Positions 28,005-35,460 of a stretch of DNA of 64,000 nucleotides are shown in pieces. The notes beneath the pieces were generated by a model, which was not told where the DNA came from, did no database searches, and worked only from the letters and a program-made list of their open reading frames with translations. The stretch comes from Bacillus weihaiensis (lineage in GTDB: Bacteria; Bacillota; Bacilli; Bacillales; Bacillaceae): assembly GCF_001889165.1 (NCBI RefSeq), contig NZ_CP016020.1, forward strand, positions 3,384,501-3,448,500, in the 5' to 3' direction. A program made the translations under genes and the position numbers. Every line of letters starts with the position of its first letter. Positions within the stretch are counted from its first letter, which is position 1.

Positions 28005-28302
28005 TCAATCCTCCGTTTATCCTTTTTCTACTAGTATGGATTTTCAGAGGAGAAATCAAACATGTAAAAAAGGTGTGGTACTTGCTTCCGGTAAATAGAA
28101 GGACCAGGTTTATCTAACACACATGTTTTTACAAACTGACAAGGAGAGAAACAATTTACTTTCGATAGAACGATGGATATATTTCTAGCAACGAAATATA
28201 GGAAAAAGAGTTACTTTAATCCTTTTTGCAGTTTAATAGATGAAGATTCTGATAGAAACTGTATAATAGGAAGTAGATTAAATCAGAAAGGGTTTGGTGT
28301 TT

Positions 28303-28980
28303 TTGACTGATTTAACAAAAACGTTTGCGAACCTATTACTTCATGGTGATACAACAAACGCATATAAACTAGTGGAAAATTTAATTTTCGAAGGATACAC
28401 CTCCCTCTACGTGTATGAAAATATTGTTAGAGATGCTTTATACTATATCGGTTACCTATGGGAAATCGATGAGATTAGCGTGGCTGATGAGCATCTAGCG
28501 ACCGGTACTGCAGATTTCGTACTCACTAAATTAGATGCCAATCTTGGTCAGATGCTAACGCATGAGCAACATGAAAGGAAATCCAAACAAGTCATGTTAT
28601 TCTGTATAGAAGGAGAAGAGCATTATATTGGGATAAAGATGGCAGCAAATGTGTTTAAAGAGCATAACTGGAATGTAAAATACTTGGGACCTAACTTACC
28701 GCTTGAGCATGCCATTCATTTTGCAAATAAAATGAAGCCCAATGTCATTTGTTTTTCTGTCACGGTTAGTCATCATCTAAAACAAATTCCAACTTATATT
28801 AAAGCTTTAGAACAGCTTGACTATAAGCCACAACTAATGATTGGTAGTCGATTAATAGATAAATATCAATTTTCTCATTTCGTCTCTAAGGACACCATCA
28901 TTATATCTGATCTAGAGGAGCTTTCCCATTGGATTAAAGAGAGAGCGAAACAGCGAGATCGTGCAAAAACTTTTAACTAA
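28303..28980 (+). CDS. HTH-less cobalamin-binding photoreceptor-like protein
   Basis: 225-residue soluble protein with a four-helix B12-cap domain (about 1-85) and a Rossmann B12-binding domain (about 95-215). The cap has W53 followed by nine residues and E63-H64 (LWEIDEISVADEHLAT), exactly the W-x9-EH motif that contacts adenosylcobalamin in CarH/LitR photoreceptors. The Rossmann part has E105-x-H107-x-x-G110 (EGEEHYIGIK), the lower-ligand motif. The MerR-type DNA-binding domain of CarH is missing, so it must signal through protein partners. TTG 28303 has AAAGGG 10 bases upstream; GTG 28297 is an alternative. It is followed 18 bases later by a PAS-like gene, probably the same operon. Confidence 0.9.
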   Translation: MTDLTKTFANLLLHGDTTNAYKLVENLIFEGYTSLYVYENIVRDALYYIGYLWEIDEISVADEHLATGTADFVLTKLDANLGQMLTHEQHERKSKQVMLFCIEGEEHYIGIKMAANVFKEHNWNVKYLGPNLPLEHAIHFANKMKPNVICFSVTVSHHLKQIPTYIKALEQLDYKPQLMIGSRLIDKYQFSHFVSKDTIIISDLEELSHWIKERAKQRDRAKTFN

Positions 28981-28998
28981 AAAGGTGTGTTGAACACA

Positions 28999-29628
28999 AT
29001 GATCGCACTTGAAAATGTACCAGTTCCTGCTTTTATTTTAAATGAAGATTTCCAAATTTTGACTTCATCTGATATGGCAAAAAAGCTTTTTTCATCTCAT
29101 AGCAACTTTTTGCAGTTGGTTGATATAGACAGTCAGAACAAGGTGTCTTTTTTCCTCACGTCAAATGACAAGGATAAATTTGAAGCAAATATGATTACCG
29201 CTTCAAATGAGCTAGAATTATTTGAAATCTATTTAAGAAAAAACGTAACGAATGATCTTTATGTTGTCTGTATACCACTTAAAGAAAACTTAAAAAAAGT
29301 CAGTCACCAGGTTCATATGCTCAGAGAACAACTAATGGTAACTGACAAAGATAAGTTAGAGCAGCATCATCGAAAAGAAATCATTTCTCTTTTTCAACCC
29401 TTTTTGAATGATACAGATCTCTATCATTTAACGAGTTCTTCAGATAATTTAAAGGTATTGCCTAGTAAGCTAGAAAAAATTCAAGACTTACTTAGTTTAC
29501 TTCGCCCAGATATTATTGAAAGTGGTAAAAGTGATCAGTTTGAACTGATTTTAGATGAATTAAACGATTTACGTTCATCCATTGATTTTTATTTAACATT
29601 AATGCCTCTTTTAGACCGCTTCGACTGA
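28999..29628 (+). CDS. PAS-like sensor/adaptor protein
   Basis: 209-residue protein. The first 100 residues look like a PAS domain (VPVPAFILNEDFQILTSSDMAKKLF, then YLRKNVTNDLYVVCIPLKEN). The rest is helical with coiled-coil character (KKVSHQVHMLREQL, LPSKLEKIQDLLSLL). There is no catalytic domain, so it is more likely an adaptor than an enzyme. It follows the B12 photoreceptor-like gene in the same direction; ATG 28999 is preferred although AAAGG is somewhat far. Its last 18 bases overlap the 3' end of the convergent CheB-CheR kinase gene. Confidence 0.68.
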   Translation: MIALENVPVPAFILNEDFQILTSSDMAKKLFSSHSNFLQLVDIDSQNKVSFFLTSNDKDKFEANMITASNELELFEIYLRKNVTNDLYVVCIPLKENLKKVSHQVHMLREQLMVTDKDKLEQHHRKEIISLFQPFLNDTDLYHLTSSSDNLKVLPSKLEKIQDLLSLLRPDIIESGKSDQFELILDELNDLRSSIDFYLTLMPLLDRFD

Positions 29629-32600
29629 ATTAGATAGAGGTAACGTAACTTCTACTGTCGTGCCTTTATCTAGTTCACTTAAAAACTGAATTTTGCCTTG
29701 GTGACTCTCTATGATTTTAAAGCTTACCATTAATCCTAAGCCTGTTCCTTTTTCCTTCGTTGTGAAGAAAGGTTCGCCCATCTTTTCTAGCTTTTCCTTC
29801 GGTATGCCCTTCCCCTGGTCTTTGAATCGAATAAGCACAGTATCGTTTGGTTGTTTAAATGTTTCTATGGTTAGCTTTCCAGCTTGCCCTTCCATTGCTT
29901 CAATTCCGTTTTTCACTATATTAATAAACACCTGTTTTAATTCATTCTCGATTCCTTTTACAACAAGAAGCTTTGGATCTATGTTTGTTTTTATTTCTAC
30001 ATTGTTGAGAATCGCTTGCGTTTCCCAGATTTTCGAAATATCTTTAATGATTTTGTTGATATTTACATCTAAGAAAGTAGCTGATTTTGACCTTGAAAGA
30101 ACTAAAAATTCATTAATAATTTCCTCAAGTCTTAGGAATTCAGACATCATGACTTCAGCATATTCCTTGCTATACGTATTCGTTTGAATCATAAGCTGTA
30201 AAAAGCCTCTAAGGGATGTAAGAGGGTTTCGGATCTCATGAGCAATTCCAGCTGCTAACTGACCAATTGCAGATAGCATTTCAGACTTTACGAGCATTTG
30301 CTCCGAGCTTTTCCTTTTTGTTATGTCCTCTCCAACACGTAGAATTTGGACGACTTCATTTTCTTCGTTTTCAACTGGAATGAGAGTGAGGTTCTCCCAC
30401 ATTTCCTCACCAGCTGGCGTTTTATATGAGACTTCACCAGACCATTTTTCTCCTGCTCTTACTTTTTTCCAGTATTGTTCAAAATCAACACCTTGATAAT
30501 AGTCGGCGTATATATCTTTTAATTTCCTTCCGATTAACTCGGTCGATTCTTTTTCAAGACGAGAAGAAAAATTACTGCTTACATATTCAATTTTTCCTTG
30601 GAAGTCTGTGAAAACTGTATTGGCTGGACTTAATTCAATAGCCTGCATACTTAATTGAAGTTCTCGATTCACTTTTTTTATCGCTGTAATATCGACAAAT
30701 GTAATAACAATCCCATCAATAATATTCTCATTTGTTCGATAGGGCATGATCTTAACGCTATACCATTCTCCATCCTTTGATGACAATTCTTTTTTCACTG
30801 CTTTTGCTGTTAGCAATACGTCCTCAATATCATTCATGAAGTAATCATAATCCAATCGATGGGAAATATGGTAGATCGGTCGACCGATATCACGTTCGAT
30901 TAAATGAAAGATTTTTAACGTTTCAGGAGTAAATAATTTAATATGAAATCTCTTATCTAAGAATATCGTAGCAATATTTGTATTGATTAAGAAGTTATCC
31001 ATGTCATTATTTAAATCTGTTAGTTCCTTAATCTTTTTCTCATACTCAGAATTCACGGTTATTAACTCTTCATTAACAGATTGCATTTCTTCATTTGTAC
31101 TTTGCAATTCTTCATTCGCCGCAATTAACTCTTCATTCGTGGATTGAAGCTCTTCGTTAGAGGTTTCTAGCTCTTCAATGGTTGTTTGAAGACCTTGTTT
31201 TGTATAATACAACTCTTGCTCCAAATCAAAAATACGCTGATTATAGGCTGAATCATGATCAAATGCAATCGATTCATTCTTAAAGATAATCGATGATTCA
31301 GGGCGATGTTCTTCAATAAATAACGCAATATATCCTTGTTTTGCATGCTTTAGAGGCTTAACAACTAATTTAACTTGTTTGCTTTCATTTCGATTAATCA
31401 GTAGGTTTTCATACTTTATTTCTTTGTTATCTTCACGTGCTTTTTTAATAGCGGTTCCAATCGCCACAGATAGGTTTGTTGGAACCATATTAAAGATGTT
31501 GTAGTTTAATTTTCCTTTTGGTAGATTTAAGTATGTTCCAGCGTTCCCTGTTGAAATAATTACTTCATTATGTTCATTTATTATGATACTCGGAGGTAAT
31601 AGCTCGTCCATTAAAGCATAGTAGAACTCATCTGGATTTTTAAATCTAGTCCCTTCTCGATAAGTCTCCACACCTAGCTTTTCTTTTTTTGCATCATGTT
31701 GCTGTGTTTGACTTGATAATAAAGCTTGAGAGAAATGCTGTGTTTGGTCTGATATATGATTGCTAAAGATTTTATATTTTTTATCAATAGGTCCAAATAA
31801 TGAAGACAACTTTCCAATTGTTTCACTAGGGCCTAAAAGCAAATAGCCTCTATCTTTTAAGGCAAAATGAAATAGAGATAAAACTCTTTGTTGAAGTTCT
31901 GTCTGAAAATAAATCATGACGTTACGACAGCTAATCATATCTAAATTAACAAAAGGTGAGTCTTTTATCATATTATGTGGAGCGAAAACAATTTTTTGTC
32001 TAATTTCACGTTTTACCTGATAGTCACTACCATCCTTATCAAAATATTTGATTAAGAGATTTGTAGGGATCGTCGTGACAATCTGCTCAGAATAGGTACC
32101 TTGACTAGCAAACTTAACCGAATCTCGATCAATATCAGTTGCAAAAACTTGCAAATCCATATCAATCTTTCTTTTTTCAATTTCCTCATTAAAGAGAATG
32201 GCTAACGAATATGCTTCCTGTCCAGTAGAACAGCCAGCTATCCAAATACGCATTTTATTGCGACCTTTCACTAAGTTCTCATCTACCATATTCGGAATTA
32301 ATTCATGCTGTAGGTAATTGAAAACCTCTTGATCTCTAAAAAAGTGTGTGACTCCTATTAAAAGATCCTCCTGTAAATATCGTATTTCTCTAGGATTCTC
32401 TAGGAGGTAATTTTTATAATCACCTAATGTTTGAAAGGATTGTTCACTTAAACTCATACGTCTTTCAATCCTGCGAACAACCGTATTTCTTTTATACATT
32501 GAAAAATCAATGCCACTCTTCTTATGTATCATCGTTAACACTTGTTGAAGTGTTGATTCATTAAAATCTACCGGTACTGTTTCCATATAGGTTATAATGT

Positions 32601-33192
32601 GCTGTGGCATATCAGAAGGACTTAAAATAAAATCAGCTACTCCAGATTTTATCGCGCTTTCAGGCATGTCTTGATATTTTGCCGTTTCATTCTGTATTAA
32701 GCACAACCCATTATTTTCATGTATATCCTTTAAACCAGTAGTCCCATCAGATCCTTTCCCTGATAAGATGATGCCAATCGACCGCTCCTTCGCGAAATCT
32801 GCTAAAGAAGTAAAAAAGTGATTAATCGGGTCATTAAGGACTTTGCCTTCGTCGTATTTTTTTAAACGAAGCATACCAGGTTTTTGAATATACAGATAAT
32901 GGTTAGGAGGACATAGAAAAACTGTATTCGGCTTCAGGATCATTCCTTCTTCCACCTGAACTACCTTCATCGTTGTGTATTTTTTTAATATCTCTGGCAT
33001 TAAGCTTTTATATTGTGACGATAAGTGCTGGACGATGACAAATGCTGCTGGTATATCAGTATCCACAGCCTGGAAGAATTGTTCAATCGCCTCAAGTCCG
33101 CCAGCAGATGCACCCAGCCCTACAATATAAGGTGTCTCGTTCTTAGTACTATTACGATCGAGAACACCTTGACCCTCTGTGTTGTTAGACAT
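29611..33192 (-). CDS. CheB-CheR-PAS-PAS hybrid histidine kinase
   Basis: 1193-residue cytosolic signalling fusion. The order is: CheB methylesterase (about 22-195; Ser in GLGASAGG, His in IVQHLSS, Asp in GKGSDGTTG); CheR methyltransferase (about 210-480; SAM loop IAGCSTGQEAYSLA); a long coiled coil of repeated EELQSTNEEL units (about 655-725); two PAS domains (about 730-840 and 850-960); HisKA with the phospho-His in AAGIAHEIRNPLTS (about 985); and HATPase_c with KGTGLGLMVS. Such CheB/CheR-PAS kinases are found as stand-alone sensors; modification of partner receptors or self-regulation is possible. GGAGG precedes ATG 33192. It is convergent with, and overlaps, the B12/PAS genes. Confidence 0.93.
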   Translation of the reverse strand: MSNNTEGQGVLDRNSTKNETPYIVGLGASAGGLEAIEQFFQAVDTDIPAAFVIVQHLSSQYKSLMPEILKKYTTMKVVQVEEGMILKPNTVFLCPPNHYLYIQKPGMLRLKKYDEGKVLNDPINHFFTSLADFAKERSIGIILSGKGSDGTTGLKDIHENNGLCLIQNETAKYQDMPESAIKSGVADFILSPSDMPQHIITYMETVPVDFNESTLQQVLTMIHKKSGIDFSMYKRNTVVRRIERRMSLSEQSFQTLGDYKNYLLENPREIRYLQEDLLIGVTHFFRDQEVFNYLQHELIPNMVDENLVKGRNKMRIWIAGCSTGQEAYSLAILFNEEIEKRKIDMDLQVFATDIDRDSVKFASQGTYSEQIVTTIPTNLLIKYFDKDGSDYQVKREIRQKIVFAPHNMIKDSPFVNLDMISCRNVMIYFQTELQQRVLSLFHFALKDRGYLLLGPSETIGKLSSLFGPIDKKYKIFSNHISDQTQHFSQALLSSQTQQHDAKKEKLGVETYREGTRFKNPDEFYYALMDELLPPSIIINEHNEVIISTGNAGTYLNLPKGKLNYNIFNMVPTNLSVAIGTAIKKAREDNKEIKYENLLINRNESKQVKLVVKPLKHAKQGYIALFIEEHRPESSIIFKNESIAFDHDSAYNQRIFDLEQELYYTKQGLQTTIEELETSNEELQSTNEELIAANEELQSTNEEMQSVNEELITVNSEYEKKIKELTDLNNDMDNFLINTNIATIFLDKRFHIKLFTPETLKIFHLIERDIGRPIYHISHRLDYDYFMNDIEDVLLTAKAVKKELSSKDGEWYSVKIMPYRTNENIIDGIVITFVDITAIKKVNRELQLSMQAIELSPANTVFTDFQGKIEYVSSNFSSRLEKESTELIGRKLKDIYADYYQGVDFEQYWKKVRAGEKWSGEVSYKTPAGEEMWENLTLIPVENEENEVVQILRVGEDITKRKSSEQMLVKSEMLSAIGQLAAGIAHEIRNPLTSLRGFLQLMIQTNTYSKEYAEVMMSEFLRLEEIINEFLVLSRSKSATFLDVNINKIIKDISKIWETQAILNNVEIKTNIDPKLLVVKGIENELKQVFINIVKNGIEAMEGQAGKLTIETFKQPNDTVLIRFKDQGKGIPKEKLEKMGEPFFTTKEKGTGLGLMVSFKIIESHQGKIQFLSELDKGTTVEVTLPLSNSVEAV

Positions 33193-33366
33193 AATGTTCC
33201 TCCTTCTCCTACTGTGTCGCATTTATAAGTGGCTCTTTTTGCCTATCATTATACATGAATCGTTACTTCCTTATTCTTTCTATTTTACCTTATATCTCTA
33301 AGATACTAAAATTCTATTTTTTTTTCCAAATCTAACACTTACCTACTTTTGTGAGTTTATAAAAAT

Positions 33367-33396: not shown

Positions 33397-35460
33397 TTAA
33401 TCTAATAGAGGGAGTAATAGTTTCACCCTAGTACCTTTATTTAATTCAGAAGTAAAATGAATCTGCCCTTTATGATTTTCAATAATGCGATAGCATATCA
33501 TAAGTCCTAAACCACTACCCTTTTCTTTATTCGAATAAAAGGGTTCACCAAGTCTTGCTAACCTTTCCTTTTCTATGCCAATTCCCTGATCTTGAATCGT
33601 TACATAAAAAAACTCTTTATTTTCTTGACCTAACTCAATTTCAATGGTTCCACCATTCGGCATTGCTTCTATAGCGTTTGTAAAGATATGGTGAAAAACT
33701 TGTTTTAGTTGGTTTTCATTACACCATAGTGAACGGTCCTTTTCTCTATGGTGAATCAAAAATGAGATATTTTGCATTTCACAAATATCACTTACTAAAT
33801 ACATCGATTGCTCAATAAGATCTATAACCTTCTTCCTTTCTCTTACTGTTTCAATATGACTATTGGCTAAGATAAGTATTTCGTTTACAAATTCTTCGAT
33901 TTGATTTAACTCAGAAATTATTAAATCATGATAAGGATTATTGAAGGTATCATAAGACCCGAGCTGCATAAATCCCTTAATGCTTGTTAATGGGTTTCTC
34001 ACTTCATGTGCAATGCTTGCTGCTAATTGCCCTACTGCAGCGAGCTTATCTGATTTTCGGAATAGATCAGCATTTAATTTATACTCTGTTATATCCTCTG
34101 CTACACCAACAAATCGGAATTTCTCTCCCTTTTCGTTTAATATAGGAACAATACGATTGCGTATCCAGTGAACTTGTCCATTCTTGTATAGTAAGCGATA
34201 ATCAAATTCAGCACGTGTCTTGAGGTTACGTAACGTTTCAATGACCCAATCCCTATCATCAGGGTGAATGACTTGATACCATTCATCCAAGTTACGACAT
34301 TCTCTTCCTATTTTCCCTACAATTTCATACCAGACGGGGCTCTTATACACAAGCTTCTTTTCGTTAAAATCATAGATCCAAAAAGCTTCATTAATATTAT
34401 TCGCAATTTGCTGGAAGCGTTCCTGACTTTCCTGTAAGCTTGTCTCTGCTTGTATCCGTTCGATTTCATTTCCAATCCATTGCGCGATAAGCTGAAGAAA
34501 CTCAATATCAGAGTCACTTATTCTTCTTTTGATACTACCTTTTGTACAAAAGCAAATACTCCCATATAATGTTTCATTTAAAAAGATAGGTGCAGCTAAA
34601 TACTCAGAAAGGTGTTCATACTCACATGACTGAGAGTAGCTAGTGCGAAAATGGACAGGCTTTAATGATTCTACAATCTGCCTTGTATAATACTCTTCTA
34701 CACGATATACCTCAGAAAAGTTTTTCACGATGCCTGTCTCATTTTTTGCGGCAATGACCTTACATTGTTCAAGCTCAATTTCTGACACCATGCCATCCGT
34801 AAGCTGGAATCGATCCGAACCTACAACTAAAAGAAGGTTTAGCTTTTCATTAAAGCTTAGATTTTTATTGCTTGTTACTTCATATAAAGTTTTAATTGAC
34901 CGCTCATTATTAGTTCTTGTGACCAAGTCCGTTCTTAATTCAATTTCCGTCACAATCCATTGACTTAGATCAATAAGTATTTGCCTATCACGAGAAGTAA
35001 ATGTCCGTGGTTCATAATCTAGAAGACAAAGAGAACCCAACACATTACCTTTCTTAGTCATAACAGGAGCACCTGCGTAAAATCTGAATCCATACTCCTC
35101 AACCAAACGATTGTGTTTAAATCGATCATCTAAAAGAGTATCTTCTATAACAATTGGCTGCCTCTCCACGACAACATGGTGGCAAAAAGCTACACTTCGA
35201 TCTGTAGAGCGTACATTTTCGAGTTCACCTGTTAAACCTACACAGGATTTAAACCATTGTTTATCGTCCGTTATTAAAGTAAAAAGAGCAATTGGAGCTT
35301 GAAAAAGTCTACTTGCTAAATTAGTAATACGATCAAATGATTCTTCCTCAGGAGTTTCTACTAGATCTAATTGATATAGCTCAGTTAATCTTCTTCGTTC
35401 AGACTCTCTTTCTAAAAAAGAGGACCTTTTATCATGAAAATTTTCCCCTAAGTTAAAAAT
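33397..35460 (-). CDS. GAF-GAF-PAS sensor histidine kinase with non-canonical start
   Basis: About 687-residue cytosolic kinase: GAF 1 (about 25-165; LTELYQLDLVETPEEESFD, RSVAFCHHVVVERQPIVI split), GAF 2 (about 190-330), PAS-PAC (about 345-465; WYEIVG, RFVGVAEDITEY), HisKA with AASIAHEVRNPLTSIKG, and HATPase_c with KGSGLGLMICY. The frame with full GAF homology is open up to a stop at 35488-35490, yet between there and the GTG at 35169 no ATG, GTG or TTG occurs. ATT at 35460 lies 6 bases after GGGGGG and is the best start guess. The GTG at 35169 would cut GAF 1 in half. Either an ATT start or a damaged 5' end is implied. Confidence 0.78.
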   Translation of the reverse strand: MFNLGENFHDKRSSFLERESERRRLTELYQLDLVETPEEESFDRITNLASRLFQAPIALFTLITDDKQWFKSCVGLTGELENVRSTDRSVAFCHHVVVERQPIVIEDTLLDDRFKHNRLVEEYGFRFYAGAPVMTKKGNVLGSLCLLDYEPRTFTSRDRQILIDLSQWIVTEIELRTDLVTRTNNERSIKTLYEVTSNKNLSFNEKLNLLLVVGSDRFQLTDGMVSEIELEQCKVIAAKNETGIVKNFSEVYRVEEYYTRQIVESLKPVHFRTSYSQSCEYEHLSEYLAAPIFLNETLYGSICFCTKGSIKRRISDSDIEFLQLIAQWIGNEIERIQAETSLQESQERFQQIANNINEAFWIYDFNEKKLVYKSPVWYEIVGKIGRECRNLDEWYQVIHPDDRDWVIETLRNLKTRAEFDYRLLYKNGQVHWIRNRIVPILNEKGEKFRFVGVAEDITEYKLNADLFRKSDKLAAVGQLAASIAHEVRNPLTSIKGFMQLGSYDTFNNPYHDLIISELNQIEEFVNEILILANSHIETVRERKKVIDLIEQSMYLVSDICEMQNISFLIHHREKDRSLWCNENQLKQVFHHIFTNAIEAMPNGGTIEIELGQENKEFFYVTIQDQGIGIEKERLARLGEPFYSNKEKGSGLGLMICYRIIENHKGQIHFTSELNKGTRVKLLLPLLD

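Follow-up and report, generated by a model that had tools for sequence, protein, structure and literature searches.

A free-standing CarH-like B12-binding protein and its conserved PAS partner beside a CheB-CheR hybrid kinase in Metabacillus: a candidate light-signalling module

Described B12 photoreceptors and the locus compared with them

B12 photoreceptors, photocobilins and clusters that combine globins with B12-binding proteins are already known (the clusters from PMC10151467, in its available portion). The CarH/LitR proteins (TtCarH, PDB 5c8a and 5c8d-f; CtMerR, 8jbs/8jbt) have in common with the protein analyzed here a cap and a B12 domain, a four-part signature and a lower-ligand His. 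Our protein differs from them in that it is without a MerR HTH domain and has a Glu at the position of His132. In the photocobilins or photoglobins, a B12 domain is tied to a bilin-type globin, whereas here the B12 protein and the globin are encoded by separate genes and, in the genome under study, at separate loci. The globin here also keeps a phycobiliprotein-like Cys-x-x-Asp, while the photocobilins treated in the available part of PMC10979010 are without a covalent Cys. The BBAG-2 clusters (bilin biosynthesis-associated globins) likewise hold a separate globin, a B12-binding protein and a bilin-making gene. However, those clusters, which are partly from Myxococcales, use HO and pre-PcyA (PMC10151467, same portion), whereas here an ABM-family protein is the candidate bilin-maker and output runs through PAS-STAS, PAS-kinase or PAS-X. 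AerR/PpaA (Rhodobacter capsulatus AerR, 7te2) is a further B12 photoreceptor and acts by binding another regulator, in that case CrtJ. Signalling by contact, with no output domain in the photoreceptor itself, has precedents in AerR with CrtJ (PMC6199135, available part) and in standalone photocobilins, which touch a separate cyclase domain and control it in trans (PMC10979010, available part).

The locus lies in a window of 64,000 nucleotides, the whole stretch of DNA that was analyzed, from the 4.36 Mb genome of Bacillus weihaiensis, whose genus is Metabacillus by its named relatives. Its features are given in Table 1, where PAS-X denotes the protein encoded next to the B12 protein; G and L numbers below refer to genomes and loci. 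The Bacillales operon may already have been described by Schneider et al. (2022) in their work on photoglobins. For a module of B12 protein, PAS-X and CheB-CheR kinase, no published description was found at the level of titles and abstract openings.

Table 1. Features of the module in the window, with the globin gene located elsewhere in the same genome
Feature	Coordinates	Strand	Remarks
-10 hexamer TATAAT, probable promoter of the B12 and PAS-X pair	28262..28267	+	GTATAATA invariant
Ribosome site GAAAGGG of the B12 gene	28286-28292	+	start codon of the B12 gene is TTG
B12-binding protein gene	28303..28980	+	cap and Rossmann domains, free-standing, 225 aa, CarH/photocobilin-type pocket, no DNA-binding domain
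PAS-X (PAS and degenerate DHp, putative adaptor)	28999..29628	+	alternative start GTG 28987
CheB-CheR-PAS-PAS-HisKA-HATPase hybrid kinase	29611..33222	-	by domain models; convergent with PAS-X, 18-base overlap at the 3' ends
Second kinase, GAF-GAF-PAS-histidine kinase	33397-35169	-
Globin gene of the window genome	G000:C1:760951-761301

The B12-binding protein and its pocket

Comparison of the B12 protein with curated models placed it closest to CarH (E 7.4e-17), although the NCBIfam CarH model was aligned only from model position 82 on and scored 61.5 bits against a cut-off of 400. Its best PDB sequence matches were the photocobilins SasPcob (8j2w/8j2x) and AbDPcob (8j2y), which were also among the top structural rows. 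Domain model searches of the 225 residues revealed no HTH family and no fused globin. The sequence-only reading had described the protein as having a W53-x9-E63-H64 and an H107 motif in a CarH-like B12 pocket with no HTH domain, which was confirmed. It had named closer similarity to a corrinoid methyltransferase subunit than to CarH as a point that would speak against it, and this was not the case. The best such subunit reached E 1.3e-5, which leaves CarH ahead by eleven orders of magnitude. The corrinoid carriers of methyltransferase systems do have the same cap-plus-Rossmann architecture, the protein has weak matches to MtgC, MtaC and MetH, and MetH and MttC rows were among its structural matches. 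That it is such a carrier nevertheless appears very improbable, as the W-x9-EH adenosyl pocket is present and the partners are signalling proteins. The MtgC and MtaC models were also under their cut-offs (24.8 of 370 and 23.8 of 450 bits, respectively), and no corrinoid methyltransferase was recognized by eye in the neighbouring ORF lists. A corrinoid methyltransferase identity was rejected on the curated model scores.

The pocket contains the elements GxxW (G50/W53), EH (E63/H64), GxxH (G104/H107) and GxxxP (G129/P133), which together are the signature of light-responsive cobalamin domains (SignatureFinder; PMC11796333, available portion). The full signature was present in 20 of 22 aligned B12 rows linked to PAS-X (five from Metabacillus and 17 others, with the damaged Metabacillus rows left out); one of the other two has N at G104 and one is truncated. 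In 48 rows labelled as PAS-STAS-linked, of which one is actually kinase-linked, the signature residues were invariant except for the Gly of GxxH (G in 11 of the 48).

The residue after W53 is Glu54, and it occupies the position of TtCarH His132, the second His of the bis-His light state (PMC11796333, in the part available). Glu or Gln is found there in all 21 readable PAS-X-linked rows. A bis-His light state of the TtCarH type therefore cannot form in the window protein. This substitution is in keeping with a different reading, in which the module responds not to light but to cobalamin supply, or to AdoCbl as opposed to other forms, and the B12 protein docks on the adaptor only after loading. 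The signature residues contact the adenosyl group and are equally fit for a ligand sensor. However, SasPcob, AbDPcob and CtMerR are also without an equivalent of His132 and yet are light-responsive, according to the available part of PMC11796333. In addition, the operons of relatives hold an ABM gene and a phycobiliprotein-like globin with a KCxxDN motif, which points to light. We thus consider a cobalamin-supply sensor unlikely and a photoreceptor the preferred reading.

The PAS partner and the neighbouring kinases

The PAS-X gene begins 6 bases downstream of the B12 gene, as counted to the GTG at 28987, from which PAS-X residues are numbered here, and the two genes are probably co-transcribed. 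In the alignment of the upstream region, GTATAATA was identical in the window and five aligned relatives, and the -35 region was poorly kept. A structure search with PAS-X listed PAS chains over residues 6-101 and little on the tail, with the Foldseek list consisting mainly of PAS/LOV chains. Across seven orthologues, 59 of the 83 positions in residues 131-213 were invariant, compared to 35 of the 102 in residues 1-102. Pairs with a computable dS gave dN/dS values of 0.05-0.20 for PAS-X.

The C-terminus of PAS-X is most likely a degenerate histidine-kinase DHp region that has neither the phospho-His nor an ATPase. Profile comparison (hhalign) of this region with the DHp region of four B12-linked PAS-kinases gave Prob 92 and E 6.5e-7, and globin, ABM and B12 controls gave Prob 0.2-0.4. 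An HMM built from the PAS-kinase DHp regions matched the window PAS-X at E 4.9e-4, the best of 1250 shuffles being 0.036. A match to the PAS-kinase profile was likewise obtained for the PAS-STAS proteins (Prob 79, E 1.6e-5), but it falls in the linker preceding the DHp. When the PAS-X tail was compared directly with the DHp of the hybrid kinase, the profile match was weak (Prob 7.6, E 0.0046); the link from the tail to DHp runs through the PAS-kinases. Counting back along an ungapped stretch, with a four-column aligner gap nearby, the phospho-His column falls on Lys156, and no His was found at this column in the PAS-X rows inspected. There was no match to Pfam HisKA in PAS-X, and domain model searches found neither a HATPase domain nor a STAS domain, the latter sought since the paralogue has one. 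That PAS-X acts as an adaptor is suggested by this combination of a DHp-like region with no phospho-His or ATPase.

We had at first regarded the PAS-X tail as an unknown domain, an idea that was dropped once a fused PAS-kinase (L173) and the PAS-kinases of L086-L088 surfaced. L173 was retrieved with the PAS-X tail profile itself, and L086-L088 were retrieved independently of that profile. Among these PAS-kinases that follow B12 genes, the phospho-His is intact in L086-L088 and in L179, and L173 has Asn there. The B12 genes linked to PAS-X and those linked to PAS-kinases form one clade (support 99/96).

The distribution of PAS-X was determined in 397 genomes of the order, which we take to be Bacillales, in surveys that scored part of the first-look candidates, at most 2, 7 or 11 per genome depending on the survey, absences holding at that depth. 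The PAS-X C-terminal domain was found in 18 of these genomes, from nine genera. A contig scan with one sequence as query had returned three Metabacillus loci only. PAS-X follows a B12 gene at all 17 loci outside the window's genome, and at 16 of them the B12 reading frame is complete and retains W53, E63, H64 and H107; the remaining locus, L171, has a truncated B12 gene and a split PAS-X. Conservation of the two genes as neighbours had been set beforehand as a check on the sequence-only reading, and it held across the nine genera. The pair is real, but the notion of a light- or B12-responsive pair has to be qualified, as the B12 gene is dispensable in some close relatives in which the PAS gene stays.

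Those relatives belong to Metabacillus, where 11 of the 21 genomes searched have PAS-X. The B12 gene beside it is intact in seven, and in the other four it has been lost or damaged while PAS-X is intact. G005 is without a B12 gene, G015 has a remnant with stops, in G013 the gene is broken by a stop, and in G011 (matching L062, M. niabensis) the cobalt ligand is gone (H107Q) and a Cys replaces G129. Three genes that relatives carry at separate loci, namely the globin, the PAS-STAS gene and the window-type B12 gene, are in G015 all decayed or were not found. PAS-X is under purifying selection between G005 and G015 (dN/dS 0.17), neither of which has a working B12 gene. Since the adaptor stays intact in genomes whose sensor gene has been lost or damaged, it serves some function in the absence of the sensor, and loss of the sensor could fix PAS-X in one signalling state. 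The same losses and the same selection would also fit a B12 protein that is a fading accessory, with PAS-X working mainly alone with the CheB-CheR kinase and sensing via its own PAS domain. This seems quite unlikely to us given the intact B12 genes, with W53, E63, H64 and H107, of the other seven Metabacillus genomes and of the 16 loci outside the window's genome noted above, and we continue to favour a B12 protein that signals through PAS-X.

A survey scoring at most two candidates per genome identified homologues of the hybrid kinase, 46-53% identical to it across 80% or more of its length, in 14 further genomes, or 15 of the 397 with the window's own. Each of the 15 also has PAS-X, with the kinase gene convergent beside it. 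The next-best matches (36-39% identity) were in genomes without a PAS-X match. G084 and G194 have a second copy (45%) elsewhere in the genome. The three PAS-X genomes without a homologue in this survey are G128, which has the fused kinase, G196 and G222. In G117 and G156, which are of one genus, the CheB-CheR protein stops short of a working DHp and ATPase, so that PAS-X and the CheB-CheR protein are both kinase relics and kinase activity cannot be the output there. This distribution argues for a link between PAS-X and the CheB-CheR protein, and against kinase activity as the universal output.

Kinase-like ORFs were observed at the place of the second kinase in L060-L062. Outside Metabacillus none was seen beside the module in the fetched stretches, some of which end close behind the first kinase. 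The proposal that the B12 protein acts by contact on the PAS protein or on the neighbouring kinases is retained, as the best hypothesis, for the PAS protein and the CheB-CheR kinase.

The wider B12 family and the proposed mechanism

The window genome has a paralogous operon 52 kb upstream (G000:C1:3360809 on), in which another free B12 protein precedes a PAS-STAS protein, and it encodes a MerR-B12 CarH-like protein (L003) elsewhere. The two free B12 proteins are 39% identical and their PAS partners are homologous (E 4.9e-12). In the PAS-STAS paralogue (L002), the STAS domain scored above cut-off (23.2 versus 22.6 bits). The kinship of the two operons would allow PAS-X to feed the PAS-STAS, or general-stress, branch instead of the neighbouring kinase. 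We regard this as improbable, since a STAS domain is absent from PAS-X and its gene accompanies that of the CheB-CheR kinase in 15 of its 18 genomes; the neighbouring kinase remains the preferred target. In some Metabacillus loci (L018, L023, L056), a gene that by eye is catalase-like adjoins the B12 and PAS-STAS operon or its remnant, in keeping with a role in photo-oxidative stress.

The gene pair is not confined to one Bacillus; it proved to be part of a large order-wide family of free B12 proteins, the usual partner of which is PAS-STAS in the loci read, with PAS-kinase also found. Among the best-scoring loci (L063-L120), a PAS-type partner lies directly downstream of 52 of 56 free B12 ORFs by the distance rule of our script. 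L093 would be the 53rd, its overlap being slightly beyond that rule, and L083, L085 and L120 are without a partner in the fetched stretch. One locus (L179 1418-5515, G078) has two divergent operons back to back, B12 - PAS-kinase - ABM - globin and B12 - PAS-STAS, and offers a natural comparison of the two outputs. In L086-L089 (G068, G070, G065 and G079), the adenosyl pocket of the B12-like proteins has been lost, EH having become EY or EQ and GxxxP being gone. The protein of G079 has also lost the ligand His, and its neighbour is a PAS protein with a shortened tail where the others have a PAS-kinase. There was no globin match in these four genomes. Judged by their residues, these proteins are possible ex-photoreceptors kept as protein-contact parts.

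A globin lies directly upstream of 22 of the 56 free B12 ORFs. In the window genome, a 122-aa globin adjoins a 101-aa ABM-family protein at ~761 kb, 2.65 Mb from the module along the contig. In L063-L147, all 40 distinct globin ORFs have the KCxxDN motif, and 39 of them have an ABM gene directly upstream. There is a good, but not closed, case for the globin as a bilin-type protein. Pfam Phycobilisome (PF00502) matches five of 13 members, with a best E of 1.6e-5, but the unrelated ARMC9_ARM matches two at a lower E (6.1e-6) and other families match single members. In the PDB profile comparison, the globin profile matched phycocyanin alpha with its Cys motif aligned, but at E 0.13 only. The ABM proteins, which are heme-monooxygenase-like, have W-x9-H in 29 of 37 distinct sequences, as retrieved with a profile seeded with sequences picked for that motif. 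The IsdG triad contains an Asn, and this Asn is not conserved in the ABM proteins.

Globin and B12 protein co-occur. The globin was found in 23 of 79 family genomes, and the same 23 have a B12 match at or below 1e-60, compared to none of the other 56; the cuts of 1e-60 and 1e-40 were set after seeing the tables, and any cut from about 1e-51 to 1e-79 gives the same 23. The other 56 comprise four with a divergent B12 protein (1e-43 to 1e-50), one with a remnant, and the rest with nothing or with MetH- or MerR-type proteins. Across the 397 order genomes (B12 cut 1e-40), both were found in 150, B12 only in 23, globin only in 13 and neither in 211, counts that ignore shared ancestry and use genome lists copied by hand. 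Two of the 18 PAS-X genomes (G097 and G160) are without a globin match. Two globins with Thr for the motif Cys were observed, both in genomes without a strong B12 match, G344 (L183 2668-3036, minus strand) and G166. Directly upstream of the latter gene, an ORF (L182 2901-3242, minus strand) joins a piece that by eye is CheB/CheR_N-like to an ABM tail, and resembles what a deletion would leave behind at a locus that formerly contained both parts. These two genomes, the only two looked at, suggest that loss of the B12 partner is accompanied by loss of the chromophore Cys.

The domains, the signature, the conserved pair, the kinase linkage and the globin co-occurrence are results of computation, and the binding of B12 and bilin, the light response, co-transcription, all protein contacts and the direction of the signal are inferred. 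We hypothesize that an AdoCbl photoreceptor contacts a PAS/pseudo-DHp adaptor and through it acts on the CheB-CheR kinase, perhaps with assistance in trans from a bilin globin, and we would give this mechanism about an even chance of being correct. The 225-aa protein would bind AdoCbl in its CarH-like pocket, with H107 below the cobalt and W53, E63 and H64 around the adenosyl group. Light would cleave the Co-C bond, and the resulting change in the shape or oligomer state of the protein would affect how it touches the PAS-X PAS domain. Signalling by contact is proposed because the protein has no output domain of its own. PAS-X, as a kinase relic, probably forms mixed dimers or helix bundles with the CheB-CheR-PAS-histidine kinase and would modulate it, up or down, via its DHp-like helices. 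As a reasoned addition, the photoreceptor may be a split photocobilin, completed in trans by the phycobiliprotein-like globin and the ABM protein from their distant locus.

Taken at its widest, this would be a light pathway of three proteins in a novel arrangement, from a free B12 photoreceptor with a bilin globin in trans, via a dead-kinase PAS adaptor, to a CheB-CheR-fused kinase, with Bacillales swapping the output between STAS, live kinase and dead-kinase adaptor. We offer it tentatively, as somewhat unlikely in this full form. If true, the light-signalling route of the module would not touch DNA directly, and the module would be a case of a kinase relic recycled as an adaptor and would supply a signal for CheB-CheR-fused kinases. 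Its separate parts would be of use for green/red optogenetics. Non-photosynthetic Bacillales would then use B12 and bilin in one split photoreceptor with interchangeable outputs, which would suggest a role for many of the free-standing cobalamin-binding proteins of the order.
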